DNA of 64,000 nucleotides, taken from the NCBI GenBank assembly GCA_020846535.1, contig JADLDR010000118.1, positions 105,589 to 169,588 of the forward strand. Reading direction: 5' to 3'. The notes beneath the pieces are model-generated. The model saw only the letters and a list, made by a program, of their open reading frames with translations. It searched no databases and was not told where the DNA came from. The translations under genes and the position numbers were made by a program. This DNA is from Armatimonadota bacterium (lineage in GTDB: Bacteria; Armatimonadota; JADLDR01). This document shows, one piece after another, positions 13,256 to 21,600 of the stretch (the stretch's first letter is position 1; each line of letters starts with the position of its first letter).

Positions 13256-15517
13256 ATGCCCATGAAATCCGGCCTACCGCTGCTTATCCTGCTGCTCTTT
13301 TCCGCTCCCGGATTCGCCTGGGGCAAGGAGGCACGCATGAACGAAGCATCGTCCTATCCCGATCCCTTCAATGTCGTCTGGACGGACCCCGGCCCGGACA
13401 GTTCGGCCTCCATGCCGCTCGGCAGCGGCGATGTGGGGCTGAATGTGTGGGTGGAGGCAGGTGGAGACCTCCTCTTTTACATCGGCAAAGCCGACGCCTG
13501 GAGCGGGCAGAACCAACTGCTTAAGCTGGGCCGGGTGCGCCTCTCCCTGGCCCCCAACCCCTACCGGCAAGGGCTACCCTTTCGCCAGACGCTCCGGCTG
13601 AGGCAGGGCGATATCGAGGTGCAGGCGGGAGAGCCGGATTCCACCATCTTGACCCGCATCCGGGCCGACGTGATCCTTCCGGTCGTATTTCTGGAGGTCG
13701 AGAGCCGCAAGCCGGTGGAGGTCCGGGTCAGCCTGGAAATGTGGCGCGAGACGGCGTCCCTTTCCGGAGAGGATCCGAATGTCGCCCTTCCCGCAGGCTC
13801 GGAAGATGCCGTTGTGCCCGGCAAAGACCGCATCCTCTGGTTTCACCGGAACCGGACATCGATTTATCCGGCCTCCATGCGCCTGCAAGGGCTGGGGAGT
13901 CTCCTCTCCGGCCTTCCCGATACGCTGATCCACCGCACCTTCGGGGGTATGATCCGAGGGGAGGGCTTTGTCGGCGAGACGCCTTATTCCCTGAAATCCG
14001 TGCAGCCGGGGAAGCGTTTCATCCTGGCGGTTCACCTCCTCACCATGCAGACCGATACGGCCCAAGAGTGGGCCGACCGGCTGGAGAAGCAGGCCGAGCG
14101 GGTGGAAGCTGTTCCCGCTGGAAAGGCGCGGAACGCCCACAATCGCTGGTGGGGCGATTTCTGGAAGCGGAGCCGGATCGGGGTGTCCGGGCCGGAGCCG
14201 GAGATCGAAACCCTGAACCGGGGGTACGCCTTGCAGCGGTTCATCAGCGCATGCGCGGGCCGGGGAGCCTATCCGATCAAATTCAACGGCTCGCTCTTCA
14301 CGGTCGATGCCCGGGAGCCGGGTGAGACGGGCGATGCCGACTACCGGCGCTGGGGCGGCTGCTACTGGTTCCAGAATACCCGGTTGGCCTACTGGCCGAT
14401 GCTGGCCTCCGGCGACTTCGACCTGATGCCGCCTCTTTTCAGGATGTACCGGGCTATGCTGCCCCTCGCCCGGGAGCGCACCCGCCTCTACTTCGGCCAT
14501 TCCGGGACCTTCTTCCCTGAAACCCTCGCCTTCTGGGGCCTCTACGCTGACGACAACTACGGGATGGAACGGGAAGGCAAGCCCGTCTCCCATGTCGATA
14601 ACACCTACATCCGGCACTATCATTCTGGCGCTCTGGAACTTCTTGCTATCCTGCTGGACTATTACGCCCACACGCGGGACGCCGAATTCATCCGGGAGAC
14701 GATCCTGCCCCTGGCGGGCGGGATTCTCGATTTCTACGATAAGCATTATCCCCGCGCCGATGGGAAGCTGCGCTTCGAACCGGCCCAGGCCCTCGAAACA
14801 TGGCAGGAGGCCGTCAATCCCCTCCCGGAAATCGCGGGGCTGAAGTGGGTTCTGGACGGGCTGCTGAATCTCCCGCCCGCGCAGACCGGGGCCGACCGGC
14901 GGGCCGCGTGGAAGCGGCTCCTCTCCGAACTCCCGCCCCTGCCCGCAGGCCGGGAAAACGGCCAGCCGTTCCTGAAGGCCGCCTCGGATATCCTGGCCCC
15001 GGCCATGAACTCCGAAAACCCTGAGCTTTACGCCGTCTTCCCCTATCGCCTCTACGGGGTCGGGAAGCCGGAGATCGCCGCCGCGGTCGAAACGTTCCGC
15101 CGGCGCATCTATCAGGGCAACGAGGGCTGGCGGCAGGATCCCATTCAGGCCGCCCTCCTGGGCCTGGCCGAACCGGCCCGGCAGATGGTACTGCAGCGAT
15201 TTTCCACCAAACACCCGGGCAGCCGCTTTCCCGCCTTCTGGGGACCGAACGCAGACTGGATCCCGGATCAGGATCACGGCACGGTCGGCCTCATGGCCCT
15301 TCAAACCATGCTTCTCCAGGCTGAGGGCCGCAAAATCCTGCTCTTCCCCGCCTGGCCTGAAAATTGGGATGTCTCCTTCCGCCTGCACGCCCCCTATAAA
15401 ACCACGGTGGAAGGCGTCTGCCGCCGGGGCAAGCTGGAATCCCTTCAGGTAACCCCCGCCAGCCGGAGGAAGGATGTTGTGCTGGGAAGCGGGATAGAAA
15501 CGGAAAAACCTTTGTGA
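13256..15517 (+). CDS. Secreted DUF5703/GH95-like six-hairpin glycosidase
   Basis: Signal peptide then FNVVWTDPGPDSSASMPLGSGDVGLNVWVEAGGDLLFYIGKADAWS; LGRVRLSLAPNPY. Confidence 0.75.
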   Translation: MPMKSGLPLLILLLFSAPGFAWGKEARMNEASSYPDPFNVVWTDPGPDSSASMPLGSGDVGLNVWVEAGGDLLFYIGKADAWSGQNQLLKLGRVRLSLAPNPYRQGLPFRQTLRLRQGDIEVQAGEPDSTILTRIRADVILPVVFLEVESRKPVEVRVSLEMWRETASLSGEDPNVALPAGSEDAVVPGKDRILWFHRNRTSIYPASMRLQGLGSLLSGLPDTLIHRTFGGMIRGEGFVGETPYSLKSVQPGKRFILAVHLLTMQTDTAQEWADRLEKQAERVEAVPAGKARNAHNRWWGDFWKRSRIGVSGPEPEIETLNRGYALQRFISACAGRGAYPIKFNGSLFTVDAREPGETGDADYRRWGGCYWFQNTRLAYWPMLASGDFDLMPPLFRMYRAMLPLARERTRLYFGHSGTFFPETLAFWGLYADDNYGMEREGKPVSHVDNTYIRHYHSGALELLAILLDYYAHTRDAEFIRETILPLAGGILDFYDKHYPRADGKLRFEPAQALETWQEAVNPLPEIAGLKWVLDGLLNLPPAQTGADRRAAWKRLLSELPPLPAGRENGQPFLKAASDILAPAMNSENPELYAVFPYRLYGVGKPEIAAAVETFRRRIYQGNEGWRQDPIQAALLGLAEPARQMVLQRFSTKHPGSRFPAFWGPNADWIPDQDHGTVGLMALQTMLLQAEGRKILLFPAWPENWDVSFRLHAPYKTTVEGVCRRGKLESLQVTPASRRKDVVLGSGIETEKPL

Positions 15518-16671
15518 TCGAATCCCGACGGGATGCTGCTGCCGTGGTCAGCCTGGTGATGGGGTGGATGTTTTTGTCCGGCATGATCGGAACCGGCATG
15601 ATCGGCCCCAACCGTTCCTCCATCGAGGGGGAATACGGGGTCAGCCATACCCTTTTCGGCCTGACGGTCGCGCTGATTCAGATCGGCAGCGCTGCAGGCG
15701 TGCTGCTGGCTGCCCCGCGCCTGCGTCGCTTCCCTCGCGTAAACCTCCTGATGGGCGGACTGGCCTTTCAGGTGGCGGGCTTTGTCTCGGCCTGCGCCAC
15801 CCGCAGCGTCTGGGGCGCGGTGGCCGGGTGGACGCTCATCACCCTGGACACGATCCTGAAGGCCATCACCAACTCCATCAGCGCCCGGCTCTGGGCGGAC
15901 AATCCCCGCAAGGGAGTGACCCTCCTGCATGGCTCCAACGGCATCGGGAAGGTCTTCGGCCCCCTGATCGCCTTCGCCTGCCTTTTCTTCTACTGGCGCT
16001 GGAGCTTCGCCGCGGTAGGGGTCATTACCGCGCTGGTGCTGCTGGCCTTATTCGCCCGCTACCGCAGCTTCAACGGGCTGGGGGCGCAGGAGAACCGGGA
16101 ACCCTCCCGTGCGGACAGGGCGGTCCTGAAGCGCCCCTTCTACTGGCTCTGCGTTATGCCCTTCGGGATGATCTCCGGCGGGGAGCTTGCCTTCGTGACC
16201 CTCCTGCCCCTCTTCTGTGAAAAGCAAAAGGACATGTCCCCCGAGGCGGCCAGCCTGATGCTGACTGTCCATCTCACCGGTCTGGCCGCAGGGCGCTTCA
16301 TCTCCGCCCTCTCCGGCGGGAAAGCCAGTAATGCGACCATTATCGCCGTCTGCCTGTCAAGCGGGCTGTTCGCCGCTCTCGCCCTGCTGACGGACAGCAT
16401 TCTTCTGCGGGCCGCCTGTCTTTTCTTCTGCGGCGGCCCCTTTTCCAGCACGTGGCCCACCTATTACGCCCAGGTCTCTCGCCTCCTGACCGGCCACCGG
16501 GAAATGCTCGATTTCGGCAGCAGCCTGAGCAACACGGTCGGCATCTCGATCTGCATCTTCGCCAGCAGCAAAATTGTCGATATCAACCTGATGGCCGCCA
16601 TACTCTTCGGCCCTGCTGTGCTATGGCTTTTCGGGATTCTCTTTTATTTAGGGCCGTATCTGAGAGGATAA
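15514..16671 (+). CDS. MFS transporter
   Basis: About 12 hydrophobic segments; GTGA overlap with upstream glycosidase stop. Confidence 0.8.
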   Translation: MIESRRDAAAVVSLVMGWMFLSGMIGTGMIGPNRSSIEGEYGVSHTLFGLTVALIQIGSAAGVLLAAPRLRRFPRVNLLMGGLAFQVAGFVSACATRSVWGAVAGWTLITLDTILKAITNSISARLWADNPRKGVTLLHGSNGIGKVFGPLIAFACLFFYWRWSFAAVGVITALVLLALFARYRSFNGLGAQENREPSRADRAVLKRPFYWLCVMPFGMISGGELAFVTLLPLFCEKQKDMSPEAASLMLTVHLTGLAAGRFISALSGGKASNATIIAVCLSSGLFAALALLTDSILLRAACLFFCGGPFSSTWPTYYAQVSRLLTGHREMLDFGSSLSNTVGISICIFASSKIVDINLMAAILFGPAVLWLFGILFYLGPYLRG

Positions 16672-16700: not shown

Positions 16701-16941
16701 TTGCCCCATACGCATCCAGATCAGGTCTTCTGTCCCACCGAGGCGGGATTCGGGGCTTTGATAGACCGTTACCTAACCCCCCTGCCCCCTTCCCGAAGCG
16801 GGCAGGGGGAGGAGATGGCACCGTAAATGACCACACAATCTACTCCCCTCTCCCCGAAACGGGGAGAGGGGTTAGAGGAGAGAGGTAACCCCGCCCCCAT
16901 GACCGGAGGATCTTTCCCCTTATCTTGTCCCTATGGGGCAA
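16701..16941. repeat. MITE-like repeat family B, copy 1
   Basis: ttgccccatacgcatccagatcagg ... gaccgttacctaacccccctgcccccttcccgaagcgggcaggggg ... ctccccgaaacggggag ... tccctatggggcaa; aligns with reverse complement of 50927-51187. Confidence 0.7.
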
Positions 16942-16960
16942 CCCATCGGGTCGTCCTCCC
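16932..16960. repeat. GGGCGACCCATCGGGTCGCCC-type palindrome (degenerate)
   Basis: ggggcaacccatcgggtcgtcctccc. Confidence 0.5.
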
Positions 16961-17057: not shown

Positions 17058-18872
17058 ATGCCCGACCGGAACTCTCAAATCCATCTTCTGCTCCACGGCC
17101 AGGAAGTCCCGCCTCCCGAACGCATCCCGCTTCGCGCCGGGCCGGTCTCTCTGCGCTACGAGGGCGGCGACTTGCGCTATCTCAGGGTCGGTGGCAAGGA
17201 AGTTCTCCGGCGCATTTACGGCGCGGTCCGGGACGAAAACTGGCGCACCGTTCCGATGGAACTCCGGGAGGTGGAGCGCGATATCCGCCCCGATTCCTTC
17301 AGGATCGCCTACGATGCCCGCCACCGGCAGGGCGCGGTGGATTTCGCCTGGCGGTGCGTCCTTCAGGGCAGCCCCGATGGAACGGTGACCGTGGGCTTCG
17401 ACGGCAGGGCGCTTGCCTCGTTTTTGAAGAACCGCATCGGATTGTGCGTACTGCATCCCGTGCGCGAGTGTTCGGGGCGGCCCTGCACGGTTCGCCATCC
17501 GGACGGCTCTGCGGAGGAAAGCCGTTTCCCGGAGCGGATCTCGCCGCACCAGCCCTTTTTCGAGGTGGCGGCCCTCACCCATGAAGCGATGCCCGGCCTG
17601 CGGGCCGAGGTGAGTTTCGCAGGGGAGGTTTTCGAGACGGAGGATCAGCGCAACTGGACGGACGCCTCCAATAAAACCTATTCCATCCCGCTTTCGGTGC
17701 CCTACCCGGCCCTTATCGAAGCCGGAACGCGAATTCACCAGACCGTTACCTTTACATTGCGCGGCCCGATCCCCGAAGAACCACCGCCCGCAAGGGAATG
17801 CATTCTGGCTGTCGGGGAGTCCTCGGTCGGGCGATTTCCGGGAATCGGCGTTCGCCTGCCCTTCCCGCCGGTGGAATTGACCGACTTCGAGCGGGATTCC
17901 CTGCGCTCGCTGCATTTGACCCATCTCTGGGCCGATGTCGAAGGGGCAGACCCGGAATCACTCCGCCAGACGGCAGCCGCATCGGCGACTCTGGGTGTTC
18001 CTCTGCGGGTCTGTCTGCGTCTGTCGGAATTCCTGGCGGAAAGCCAACTGCGGGCCGTCCGCGCCCTCTATGACGAGATCGAACCGGCGGCAGCCGACTG
18101 GGTGGTTTTCCCCTCTTCCGGGCCGGTCGTCGCCCTGGCCCGCGCCATTCTGCCGAAAGGATCGCGCATCGGGGGAGGGAGCGACCGGGATTTCACGGAA
18201 CTCAACCGCAACCGCCCCGCGCCCGGGCTGCTCGATTTCCTCTGCTATGGCATCCATCCGCAGGTTCATGCCTTCGACGACACCTCCATCATGGAGACCG
18301 CAGAAACCCACGGCGAAACCCTTCGCACAGCCCATACCTTCGCCACAGGCGCTCCCGTATCCCCCGGCCCGATCCGCCTGGCCCCCGGCAGACCCGATCC
18401 CCGGCTCGACTCTCTTCTTGCCGCCGCCTGGACGGTGGGCAGCCTCCAGCAACTTGCCGAAAACGGGGCGGAATCCGCCACCTATTTCGAGGCTGCCGGA
18501 ACGAACGGGATCCTCCGGGATGGCCGGATCGTCCCCCTCTACCCCGTTCTGGCTCAGGCCGCCTCCTGGAAAGGCGCGGAAACGCTGCCGGTGTCGGTCA
18601 GCGATCCCCTGGCCTTCGCCGCCGCAGCCGTGCGGCAGGAGGGGCGACTCAGACTCCTCATCGCCAACCTGTCCCCGGATGAAAAGCAGGCCGCCCTCCG
18701 CTTGCCTGGCAAGGTTTCCGCAAAGGAATACCGCCTCTCGGCGGAGAATGCTCTCCGTATCATGCGGGAGCCACAAAGTTTCCGGCAGAACCCGCGAACA
18801 GTCGACGGAGAGGCAATGGAGCTTTCATTGTCGCCCTACGGGGTGGCGCTGTTGGAGGAAGATCATGCCTGA
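17058..18872 (+). CDS. apnL: Putative D-apionate lactonase (ApnL-like)
   Basis: 604 aa; RAGPVSLRYEGGDLRYLRVGGKEVLRRIYGAVRDENWRTVP...GFDGRALASFLKNRIGLCVLHPV, resembles the ApnL family; first gene of a coupled operon. Confidence 0.7.
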   Translation: MPDRNSQIHLLLHGQEVPPPERIPLRAGPVSLRYEGGDLRYLRVGGKEVLRRIYGAVRDENWRTVPMELREVERDIRPDSFRIAYDARHRQGAVDFAWRCVLQGSPDGTVTVGFDGRALASFLKNRIGLCVLHPVRECSGRPCTVRHPDGSAEESRFPERISPHQPFFEVAALTHEAMPGLRAEVSFAGEVFETEDQRNWTDASNKTYSIPLSVPYPALIEAGTRIHQTVTFTLRGPIPEEPPPARECILAVGESSVGRFPGIGVRLPFPPVELTDFERDSLRSLHLTHLWADVEGADPESLRQTAAASATLGVPLRVCLRLSEFLAESQLRAVRALYDEIEPAAADWVVFPSSGPVVALARAILPKGSRIGGGSDRDFTELNRNRPAPGLLDFLCYGIHPQVHAFDDTSIMETAETHGETLRTAHTFATGAPVSPGPIRLAPGRPDPRLDSLLAAAWTVGSLQQLAENGAESATYFEAAGTNGILRDGRIVPLYPVLAQAASWKGAETLPVSVSDPLAFAAAAVRQEGRLRLLIANLSPDEKQAALRLPGKVSAKEYRLSAENALRIMREPQSFRQNPRTVDGEAMELSLSPYGVALLEEDHA

Positions 18873-19905
18873 GAAGCTCCGTTTTGCGGTGCTGGGGGCC
18901 GGGTTCTGGGCGCACTACCAGATAGCCGCCTGGCGCGAGCAGCAGGGCGTCGAATGCGTCGCCGTCTACAACCGCCGCCGGGAGCGGGCGGAGGCCCTTG
19001 CCTCCGCCTTCGGCATTCCCCGGGTCTACGACAATCCCGATGAGATTCTGGACCAGGAGGCCCTGGATTTTGTGGATATTGTGACCGCGGTGGAGACCCA
19101 CCCGGCCTTCGTCGGCCTCTGCGCCAAGCGCAGGCTTCCGGTTATCTGTCAGAAGCCCATGGCCTCCACCCTGGAGGAGGCCGAAGGGATGGTCGCGACC
19201 TGCCGGTCGGCGGAGGTTCTCTTTCTGGTGCATGAGAACTGGCGCTGGCAGGCTCCCATCCGCGCCCTGGCCGCCGTCCTGAACGAAGGCCGGATCGGGC
19301 GGCCCTTCCGCGGGCGGGTCAGCTTTGTCTGCTCCTTCCCTGTGCTCGACAACCAGCCTTTTTTGAAGGAGCTAGATCAGTTCATTCTGACCGATATCGG
19401 CAGCCACATCCTGGATACGGCCCGCTTCCTCTTTGGGGAGGCCGACCGGCTCTACTGCGAGACGGCCCGTATCCATACCGACATCCGGGGCGAGGATGTC
19501 GCCACCGTGCTGCTGCACACCGAAAGGGGAGCCGCCGTCACCTGCGAGATGAGCTATGCAAGTCGCACCGAACAGGAGCGGTTCCCCCAGACCTTCATCT
19601 TTATCGAGGGAGAGAAGGGGTCGGCGGAACTGGCCCCCGATCACTGGGTGCGGGTCACCACCGCGGAAGGGACACACTCTCGCCGCTATCCCCCGCCCCG
19701 CTATCCCTGGGCCGACCCCACCTACGACCTGGTGCAGTCCAGCATGGTTCCCTGCCAGGCCGACCTCCTGCGGGCCGTCCGAGGGAAGGGCAACGCCGAA
19801 ACGACCGGCCCGGATAACCTCAAAACCATGAGGCTGGTCTTCGCCGCCTACGAATCCGCCCGCATAGGCCAGGCGGTGGCGATCAGCCGGGAGGAACCCC
19901 TATGA
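18865..19905 (+). CDS. apsD: Gfo/Idh/MocA oxidoreductase, putative D-apiose dehydrogenase (ApsD-like)
   Basis: LRFAVLGAGFWAHYQIAAWREQQGVECVAVYNR...VICQKPMA...HENWRWQAPIRAL...FILTDIGSHILDTARFLFGEA; overlaps upstream stop by 8 bp. Confidence 0.72.
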   Translation: MPEKLRFAVLGAGFWAHYQIAAWREQQGVECVAVYNRRRERAEALASAFGIPRVYDNPDEILDQEALDFVDIVTAVETHPAFVGLCAKRRLPVICQKPMASTLEEAEGMVATCRSAEVLFLVHENWRWQAPIRALAAVLNEGRIGRPFRGRVSFVCSFPVLDNQPFLKELDQFILTDIGSHILDTARFLFGEADRLYCETARIHTDIRGEDVATVLLHTERGAAVTCEMSYASRTEQERFPQTFIFIEGEKGSAELAPDHWVRVTTAEGTHSRRYPPPRYPWADPTYDLVQSSMVPCQADLLRAVRGKGNAETTGPDNLKTMRLVFAAYESARIGQAVAISREEPL

Positions 19906-20741
19906 AAACCGCTCTTTTCGGGGCCGGGGGCAAGATGGGCCGCCGCCTGACCCGAAACCTGAAGGACTCGGCCTATGAGATGCTTTATGTGGAGGTCAGC
20001 GAGCCGGGCATCCGGGCTCTGAGAGAGGCCGGGCTGGAACCCACCCCTCAGGCGGAAGTCCTGGCCGCCGCCGATGCCGTTATCCTGGCCGTTCCGGACC
20101 GGCTGATAGGCCGCATCGCGGACGAGATCGTTCCCGCGCTCCGGCCGGGCGCGATGGTCGCGCTCCTCGATCCCGCAGCGCCCCGGGCCGGAGATCTTCC
20201 CGGACGGGAGGATATCGCCTATTTCGTCACCCATCCCTGCCATCCGCCTGTCTTCAACGAGGAGAACGACCCCGAGGCCCGGAAGGACTACTTCGGGGGT
20301 GTCCGGGCCAGGCAGAACATCGTTTGCGCCCTCATGCAGGGGACGGAGGCGGATTACGCCCGCGGGGAAGCCCTGGCGAAGACGATGTTCGCCCCTGTAA
20401 TGCGGGCGCACCGTATCACCGTGGAGCAGATGGCGGTTCTGGAGCCTGCCCTGGCCGAGACCGTGGCCGCCTCCTGCCTGACCCTGATCCGCGAAGCGAT
20501 GGATGAGGCCGTAGGGCAGGGCGTGCCGGAGGAGGCCGCCCGGGATTTCCTCCTGGGGCATCTCAACATCCCCCTGGCGATCCTCTTCGGGGAGGTGGAT
20601 TCCACCTTCTCGGACGGGGCGAAGCTGATCATGCGCTACGGACAAGGCCGCCTCTTCCGCCCGGGCTGGAGAGAGCTTTTTACCCCGGAAAGCGTCCTCC
20701 GGCAGGTGAGGGTCATCGTGAACGGGAAGCTGCCGGAGTAG
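19902..20741 (+). CDS. apnO: Phosphogluconate-dehydrogenase-like protein, putative D-apionate oxidoisomerase (ApnO-like)
   Basis: MKTALFGAGGKMGRRLTRNLKDSAYEMLYVEVSEPGI...FVTHPCHPPVFNEENDPEARKDYFGG...ALMQG...LGHLNIPLAILFGEV; ATGA overlap with upstream gene. Confidence 0.72.
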   Translation: MKTALFGAGGKMGRRLTRNLKDSAYEMLYVEVSEPGIRALREAGLEPTPQAEVLAAADAVILAVPDRLIGRIADEIVPALRPGAMVALLDPAAPRAGDLPGREDIAYFVTHPCHPPVFNEENDPEARKDYFGGVRARQNIVCALMQGTEADYARGEALAKTMFAPVMRAHRITVEQMAVLEPALAETVAASCLTLIREAMDEAVGQGVPEEAARDFLLGHLNIPLAILFGEVDSTFSDGAKLIMRYGQGRLFRPGWRELFTPESVLRQVRVIVNGKLPE

Positions 20742-20744
20742 AAT

Positions 20745-21560
20745 ATGAAACCGGGCCTCGGCTCCTATACCTTCACCTGGGCGGTCGGCGTCCCCGGATT
20801 CGCGCCGGACAGGCCGATGGACGCCTTCGCCCTTCTGGAAGCGGCGGCGCGTCTGGAGGCAAAAGCCGTTCAGTTCTGCGACAACCTGCCGCTCTCCGGC
20901 CTGCCCGAACCGGAGTTACGGGCGCTCCGGGCGGAGGCGGACTCGATGGGCATCGCTGTAGAGGTAGGGACCCGCGGGCTGGATCCGGAAAACCTCCGGG
21001 CCTACCTGCGACTGGCCGCTCCGTTCGGCTGCCCGTTCGTGCGCCTGGTGATCGACCGGCCCGGAGACGAGCCTTCTCCAGAAGAGGCCCTTGCCCGCCT
21101 GCGCCCGATTCTGCCCGATTTCGCCCGCGCCGGCGTCAAACTGGCCGTAGAGAACCACGACCGCTTCCCGGCCTCCGTTCTGGCCCGGCTGGTGGAGAGC
21201 CTGGGAGCCGACCGGGCGGGGGTCTGCCTGGATACCGTCAACTCCTTCGGCTGCCTGGAAGGGCTGGAGGCGGCGATCCCAATCCTGGCCCCTTACACCC
21301 TGAACCTCCATGTCAAGGACTTCATCCTGCGCCGCATGAGCCACCAGATGGGCTTTATCATCGAGGGTTGCCCCGCCGGTCAGGGAAGGCTGGACATCCC
21401 CCGGCTCCTCGAACAACTGGCCGCCGCCGGCAAAAGCGAGATCAGCGCCGTTCTCGAACTCTGGACCCCGCCCGAAGCCACCCTGGAGGAGACCATTCGC
21501 AAGGAACGGAGGTGGGCGGAGGAGAGCATGGCGTATTTGCAAGGGGCAGTGAGAGGGTGA
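20745..21560 (+). CDS. Sugar phosphate isomerase/epimerase-type TIM barrel protein
   Basis: LAVENHDRFPASVLARLVESLGADRAGVCLDTVNSFGCLEGLE...LNLHVKDF; 3 nt downstream of apnO-like gene. Confidence 0.88.
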   Translation: MKPGLGSYTFTWAVGVPGFAPDRPMDAFALLEAAARLEAKAVQFCDNLPLSGLPEPELRALRAEADSMGIAVEVGTRGLDPENLRAYLRLAAPFGCPFVRLVIDRPGDEPSPEEALARLRPILPDFARAGVKLAVENHDRFPASVLARLVESLGADRAGVCLDTVNSFGCLEGLEAAIPILAPYTLNLHVKDFILRRMSHQMGFIIEGCPAGQGRLDIPRLLEQLAAAGKSEISAVLELWTPPEATLEETIRKERRWAEESMAYLQGAVRG

Positions 21561-21600
21561 CTCATCGGGTCGTCCTCTCAAGTAGGGTCCTGAAACCAAA

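Follow-up and report, generated by a model that had tools for sequence, protein, structure and literature searches.

D-apiose is a branched sugar of plant cell walls. Two oxidative routes for its breakdown were reportedly described by Carter et al. in 2018, one ending in the decarboxylase OiaC, and the other in the kinase OiaK and the RuBisCO-like protein OiaX. The operon analysed here resembles the OiaC branch in its trunk of ApsD, ApnL, and ApnO, followed by one predicted decarboxylase, with neither a kinase nor a RuBisCO-like protein in either case, but differs from it in its non-proteobacterial host, its divergent ApnL, and the lack of linked genes for an ABC or TRAP transporter, a Dak-type kinase, a TPI-like protein, or RpiB. 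The first three enzymes are also common to the OiaK/OiaX branch, as found in Rhizobium sp. K102 (L010) and Roseibium (L011), which has a 3-oxo-isoapionate kinase and a RuBisCO-like decarboxylase where the present operon has a TIM barrel. A rhodobacterial strain with the ApnL, ApsD, ApnO, OiaK, and OiaX genes has been reported to grow on D-apiose (PMC11747546), and the RuBisCO-like proteins act on 3-oxo-isoapionate-4-phosphate, as cited in PMC6302742.

The window, that is, the whole stretch of 64,000 nucleotides under analysis (G000:C118:105589-169588), belongs to an Armatimonadota assembly of 6.14 Mb in 253 contigs, with a completeness of 96 and a contamination of 8. The operon occupies positions 17058-21560 and consists of four co-directional genes, all on the + strand. 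Genes 1 and 2 overlap by 8 nt, given that gene 2 starts at the ATG at 18865, while genes 2 and 3 share an ATGA (19902-19905), and genes 3 and 4 are separated by a gap of 3 nt. The preliminary description of this DNA had reported this layout in the same terms, together with the absence of a kinase and a RuBisCO-like gene, and the operon itself indeed has neither. All four proteins have relatives in the databases, and the same combination of genes was found again in the Chloroflexi MAG L002 and, within the phylum, in further genera (L049, L050, L051, L070), so the operon is not a product of chance.

The operon is read here as an oxidative pathway for D-apiose, the last step of which is a direct decarboxylation, with predicted substrates, products, and stereochemistry, at a probability of roughly 0.8. 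This reading is based on homology, gene order, conserved residues, and the replacement of OiaK and OiaX. The ApsD-like enzyme would oxidize D-apiose to D-apionolactone, the ring of which would be opened by the ApnL-like enzyme to yield D-apionate. The ApnO-like enzyme would then oxidize the D-apionate and move its hydroxymethyl group, forming the beta-keto acid 3-oxo-isoapionate, which a metal-dependent TIM barrel of the OiaC type would decarboxylate to L-erythrulose.

Gene 1 (17058..18872, + strand, 604 aa) encodes the ApnL-like protein, a putative D-apionate lactonase. It matches no Pfam family, and its sole NCBIfam match is the ApnL model, NF049900 (E 1.4e-79), with a score of 268 bits. As the curated cut-off is 750 bits, the protein is a divergent homologue rather than a formal equivalog. 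The proteobacterial control protein, from Roseibium, scores 919 bits, whereas the gene 1 homologues of L002, L003, and L050 reach only 290-350 bits, which indicates that the model favours proteobacterial sequences. The protein retains 37/37 invariant columns in an alignment of 13 ApnL homologues that includes both the proteobacterial ApnL and the window protein itself. These columns are concentrated at approximately residues 189-208, where they make up most of the block G-x-x-F-E-x-E-D-Q-R-x-W-x-D-x-S-x-K-T-Y. The AlphaFold model of the product, with a mean pLDDT of 54, was left out of the interpretation. The model match and the retained columns support the prediction of a divergent D-apionate lactonase.

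Other forms of this step may exist elsewhere in the phylum. Some families carry a short ApnL homologue (L053-L058, L062) of approximately 500 aa, about 100 aa shorter, in which the invariant block is kept, and the clusters of genus g93 have no ApsD homologue. In four genera, a protein of approximately 248 aa with an Amidohydro_2 domain (PF04909) adjoins ApnO in clusters that lack ApnL (L074:7272-8021, L075:8844-9590, L077:1162-1899, L078:7269-8015, and L079:8937-9680), and this protein may be a replacement lactonase.

Gene 2 (18865..19905, + strand, 346 aa), a member of the Gfo/Idh/MocA group, combines the domains PF01408 and PF22725, and is approximately 40% identical to the rhizobial ApsD. 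Its best solved structures are those of the 5uhw group (E 4.8e-80), far ahead of the next best (8e-19). The record of 5uhw reads only “oxidoreductase protein”, although it is taken here to be the D-apiose dehydrogenase, ApsD. In 12 homologues, K97 of the C-Q-K-P motif, D177, and H181 are invariant. Gene 2 is thus predicted to encode an ApsD-like D-apiose dehydrogenase, closest to the 5uhw group, with the catalytic lysine and histidine in place.

Gene 3 (19902..20741, + strand, 279 aa) encodes a Rossmann and PGDH_C protein (PF16896, E 2e-61), for which the best solved structures are 5t57 (E 6e-93), presumably ApnO, and 3c24. It is 54-57% identical to the ApnO proteins of rhizobial operons with an annotated OiaX, and these relatives are located in OiaX/OiaK/ApsD/ApnL operons. 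The protein is predicted, from its sequence, to be a D-apionate oxidoisomerase orthologous to the ApnO of the OiaX/OiaK operons. The earlier assignment of the first three genes to ApnL, ApsD, and ApnO is supported by these matches: the best named matches of genes 1 and 3 are ApnL and ApnO, and the residues invariant in the respective families are present.

Gene 4 (20745..21560, + strand, 271 aa) encodes a TIM barrel of the PF01261 family (E 7.7e-20), and has no NCBIfam match, which includes the lack of a match to any OiaC model. Four residues, E136, D163, H189, and E238, are invariant in 19 homologues and lie at the metal-ligand positions expected for the xylose isomerase-like fold. The structure model, built from two sequences, has a mean pLDDT of 69 and matches the structures of UlaE and D-tagatose 3-epimerase. 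The fold and the Glu-Asp-His-Glu metal site are shared with these xylose isomerase-like barrels, and with IolI, but identity in the fold matches is only 15-19%, and the context of gene 4 points to a decarboxylase. The TIM-barrel tree with outgroups has long branches. OiaC itself (EC 4.1.1.120) is taken here to be a protein of the PF01261 fold, and gene 4, as a metal-type TIM barrel, fits OiaC on the basis of this fold and of its gene context, making it a candidate 3-oxo-isoapionate decarboxylase.

The distribution of the TIM barrel in the phylum bears on its role. In a sample of 291 genomes, ApnO is present in 34 and absent from 257, and the ApnO neighbourhoods are of two kinds, with either the TIM barrel or OiaK and OiaX. 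When whole genomes are counted, the TIM barrel is found in 23 of the 34 ApnO genomes, an OiaX-like RuBisCO-like protein in seven, both in none, and neither in four. The probability of this mutual exclusion (Fisher one-sided, p 6e-5; approximately 1e-3 by the same arithmetic per genus, with the TIM barrel in 16/24 genera, OiaX in 5/24, and an overlap of 0) overstates the independence of the genomes, because those of one phylum are kin. Both types of branch are found within families f6 and f8, and the well-supported branches of the ApnO tree imply that the branch type changed at least twice. The ApnL/ApsD/ApnO trunk is combined with OiaX and OiaK, and not with the TIM barrel, in a Pirellulales MAG (L003) and in several relatives. 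At E<1e-50, homologues of gene 4 are found in 21 ApnO-bearing genomes and in 0/257 of the others, while at E<=1e-20 they are found in 23 ApnO genomes and in nine others.

Given the mutual exclusion and the restriction of the close homologues to ApnO genomes, the TIM barrel is tied to ApnO and stands in for OiaK and OiaX. As the replacement of the kinase and the RuBisCO-like decarboxylase is exact, the TIM barrel is predicted to consume the same intermediate. The proposal made in the preliminary description, that the TIM barrel could act on 3-oxo-isoapionate and so substitute for the kinase/RuBisCO-like branch, thus gains the backing of the 34 genomes. A RuBisCO-like protein encoded elsewhere in the genome (C171, L046) was considered as a possible OiaX, and was set aside, being nearer to the type III models, with only 184 bits to OiaX.

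For L-erythrulose, the product of the OiaC route, a Dak-family kinase would be expected. The Dak1 kinase (PF02733) was not found in the genome of the window or in 19 relatives, while the control genomes were matched, so that these 20 genomes lack the established way of using this sugar. On a Pantoea plasmid, the TIM barrel and ApnO are adjacent, and are accompanied by dihydroxyacetone-kinase-type, TPI-like, RpiB, and transketolase genes, the set that would be expected for a route through L-erythrulose. It is tentatively suggested, at somewhat less than even odds, that the decarboxylating branch of the phylum processes L-erythrulose by a non-Dak route with a new enzyme, and that an amidohydrolase replaces ApnL in some families. 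In another genome (G015), an OiaC-like TIM barrel lies between an SDR and a ribulokinase in a single run (L110:6719-9960, on C48), on a contig separate from ApnO, which is a possible hint at the use of L-erythrulose. The FGGY kinase of this run was rejected as the L-erythrulose kinase, given that it is a ribulokinase orthologue and that the genome of the window has only a distant one, which makes it a weak lead. On contig C178 of the genome of the window, an SBD_N kinase, a PdxA-type dehydrogenase, and a LarA/DUF2088-like third gene are found together (L047:7409-10869) and resemble a module for tetronate or another acid sugar. The SBD_N kinase was also rejected as the kinase of the pathway, since it sits with PdxA and the third acid-sugar gene, and is probably involved in tetronate metabolism.

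The nature of the substrate is suggested by the genes that adjoin related operons. When the unassigned neighbours were clustered, the most recurrent extra family, with the widest spread over genera, was the apiosidase family PF13204, which adjoins operons of both branch types (L003, L050, L051, L066, L070, L071, and L072). At E<=1e-40, PF13204 is found in 30/34 ApnO genomes and in 114/257 others (p 7.5e-7). The contig that carries the present operon has no apiosidase, and the approximately nine PF13204 genes of this genome lie elsewhere in the assembly. The product of one of them, on contig C190, shares 50% identity with the apiosidase that adjoins the L003 operon. The recurrence of PF13204 and the likeness of the C190 protein therefore favour D-apiose over another branched sugar.

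Two genes upstream of the operon had been described as a GH95-like glycosidase (13256-15517) and an MFS transporter (15514-16671) consistent with sugar uptake. Both genes are present, and the product of the former combines DUF5703_N with a weak GH95 catalytic domain, and is close to the solved, unnamed DUF5703 structures 9hmb (E 6.5e-162) and 9hyq. Neither gene was among the recurrent neighbours of related operons in the clustering, where the apiosidase recurs instead, so that their link to the operon is unsupported and they do not appear to be a conserved part of the system. Nor does any conserved transporter accompany the operon among its relatives. The 386 nt that separate the operon from the MFS gene contain a perfect 12-bp inverted repeat (16845..16871), which is not followed by a T run and is a candidate terminator or boundary. 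Rfam searches and folding of the upstream region gave nothing above noise.

The operon is flanked by the two identical copies of a 14-nt direct repeat, CATCGGGTCGTCCT, which lie at 16944-16957, 100 nt ahead of gene 1, and at 21563-21576, 2 nt past gene 4. No further mismatch-free copy was found in the parts of the genome examined, and the repeat has no significant RNA fold and no Rfam family.

The divergence of the trunk enzymes might indicate that the same chemistry acts on another branched sugar or aldonate, such as hamamelose or another C-branched aldose. The low ApnL score (268 vs 750 bits), the limited identity of gene 2 to the rhizobial ApsD, and the lack of an adjoining apiosidase would all be compatible with this, but the apiosidase is the top recurrent neighbour of related operons, also where these carry the TIM barrel, and the genome encodes several proteins of this family, one of them half identical to the operon-linked enzyme of L003, which makes another substrate quite unlikely. 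It is very improbable that the four genes are chance neighbours that belong to no common pathway and merely form a generic cluster for sugar oxidation, given that, while the Gfo/Idh/MocA and PF01261 families are very common, the reading frames here overlap, the same specific subfamilies recur in many genera and in three phyla, and the mutual-exclusion counts and ApnO-restricted homologues of the TIM barrel contradict such an origin.

A further alternative concerns the last step only, in that the TIM barrel may isomerize, epimerize, or otherwise cleave 3-oxo-isoapionate, and thus feed a different downstream route. The PF01261 family is composed mostly of isomerases and epimerases, the solved folds that appear closest in the structural comparison are ketose 3-epimerases, and the family of the L-erythrulose kinase was missing from 20/20 genomes. 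This is nevertheless considered unlikely, given the exact replacement of a kinase and a RuBisCO-like decarboxylase by the TIM barrel, the ready decarboxylation of beta-keto acids, and the location of the Pantoea homologue with the genes expected for the use of L-erythrulose.

Direct decarboxylation by gene 4 is thus retained as the preferred reading. The pathway itself is already known, and the novelty lies in the lineage and in the comparisons between genomes, which strengthen the assignment of the TIM barrel as the decarboxylase beyond what the window offers by itself. The operon would extend D-apiose catabolism to a phylum distant from the Pseudomonadota, in which the enzymes were assayed. 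The phylum also provides a clean comparative test, in which a single TIM-barrel decarboxylase, on the one hand, and a kinase with a RuBisCO-like protein, on the other, would represent alternative solutions to one step, both types of branch being linked to apiosidases, which release apiose from plant material.
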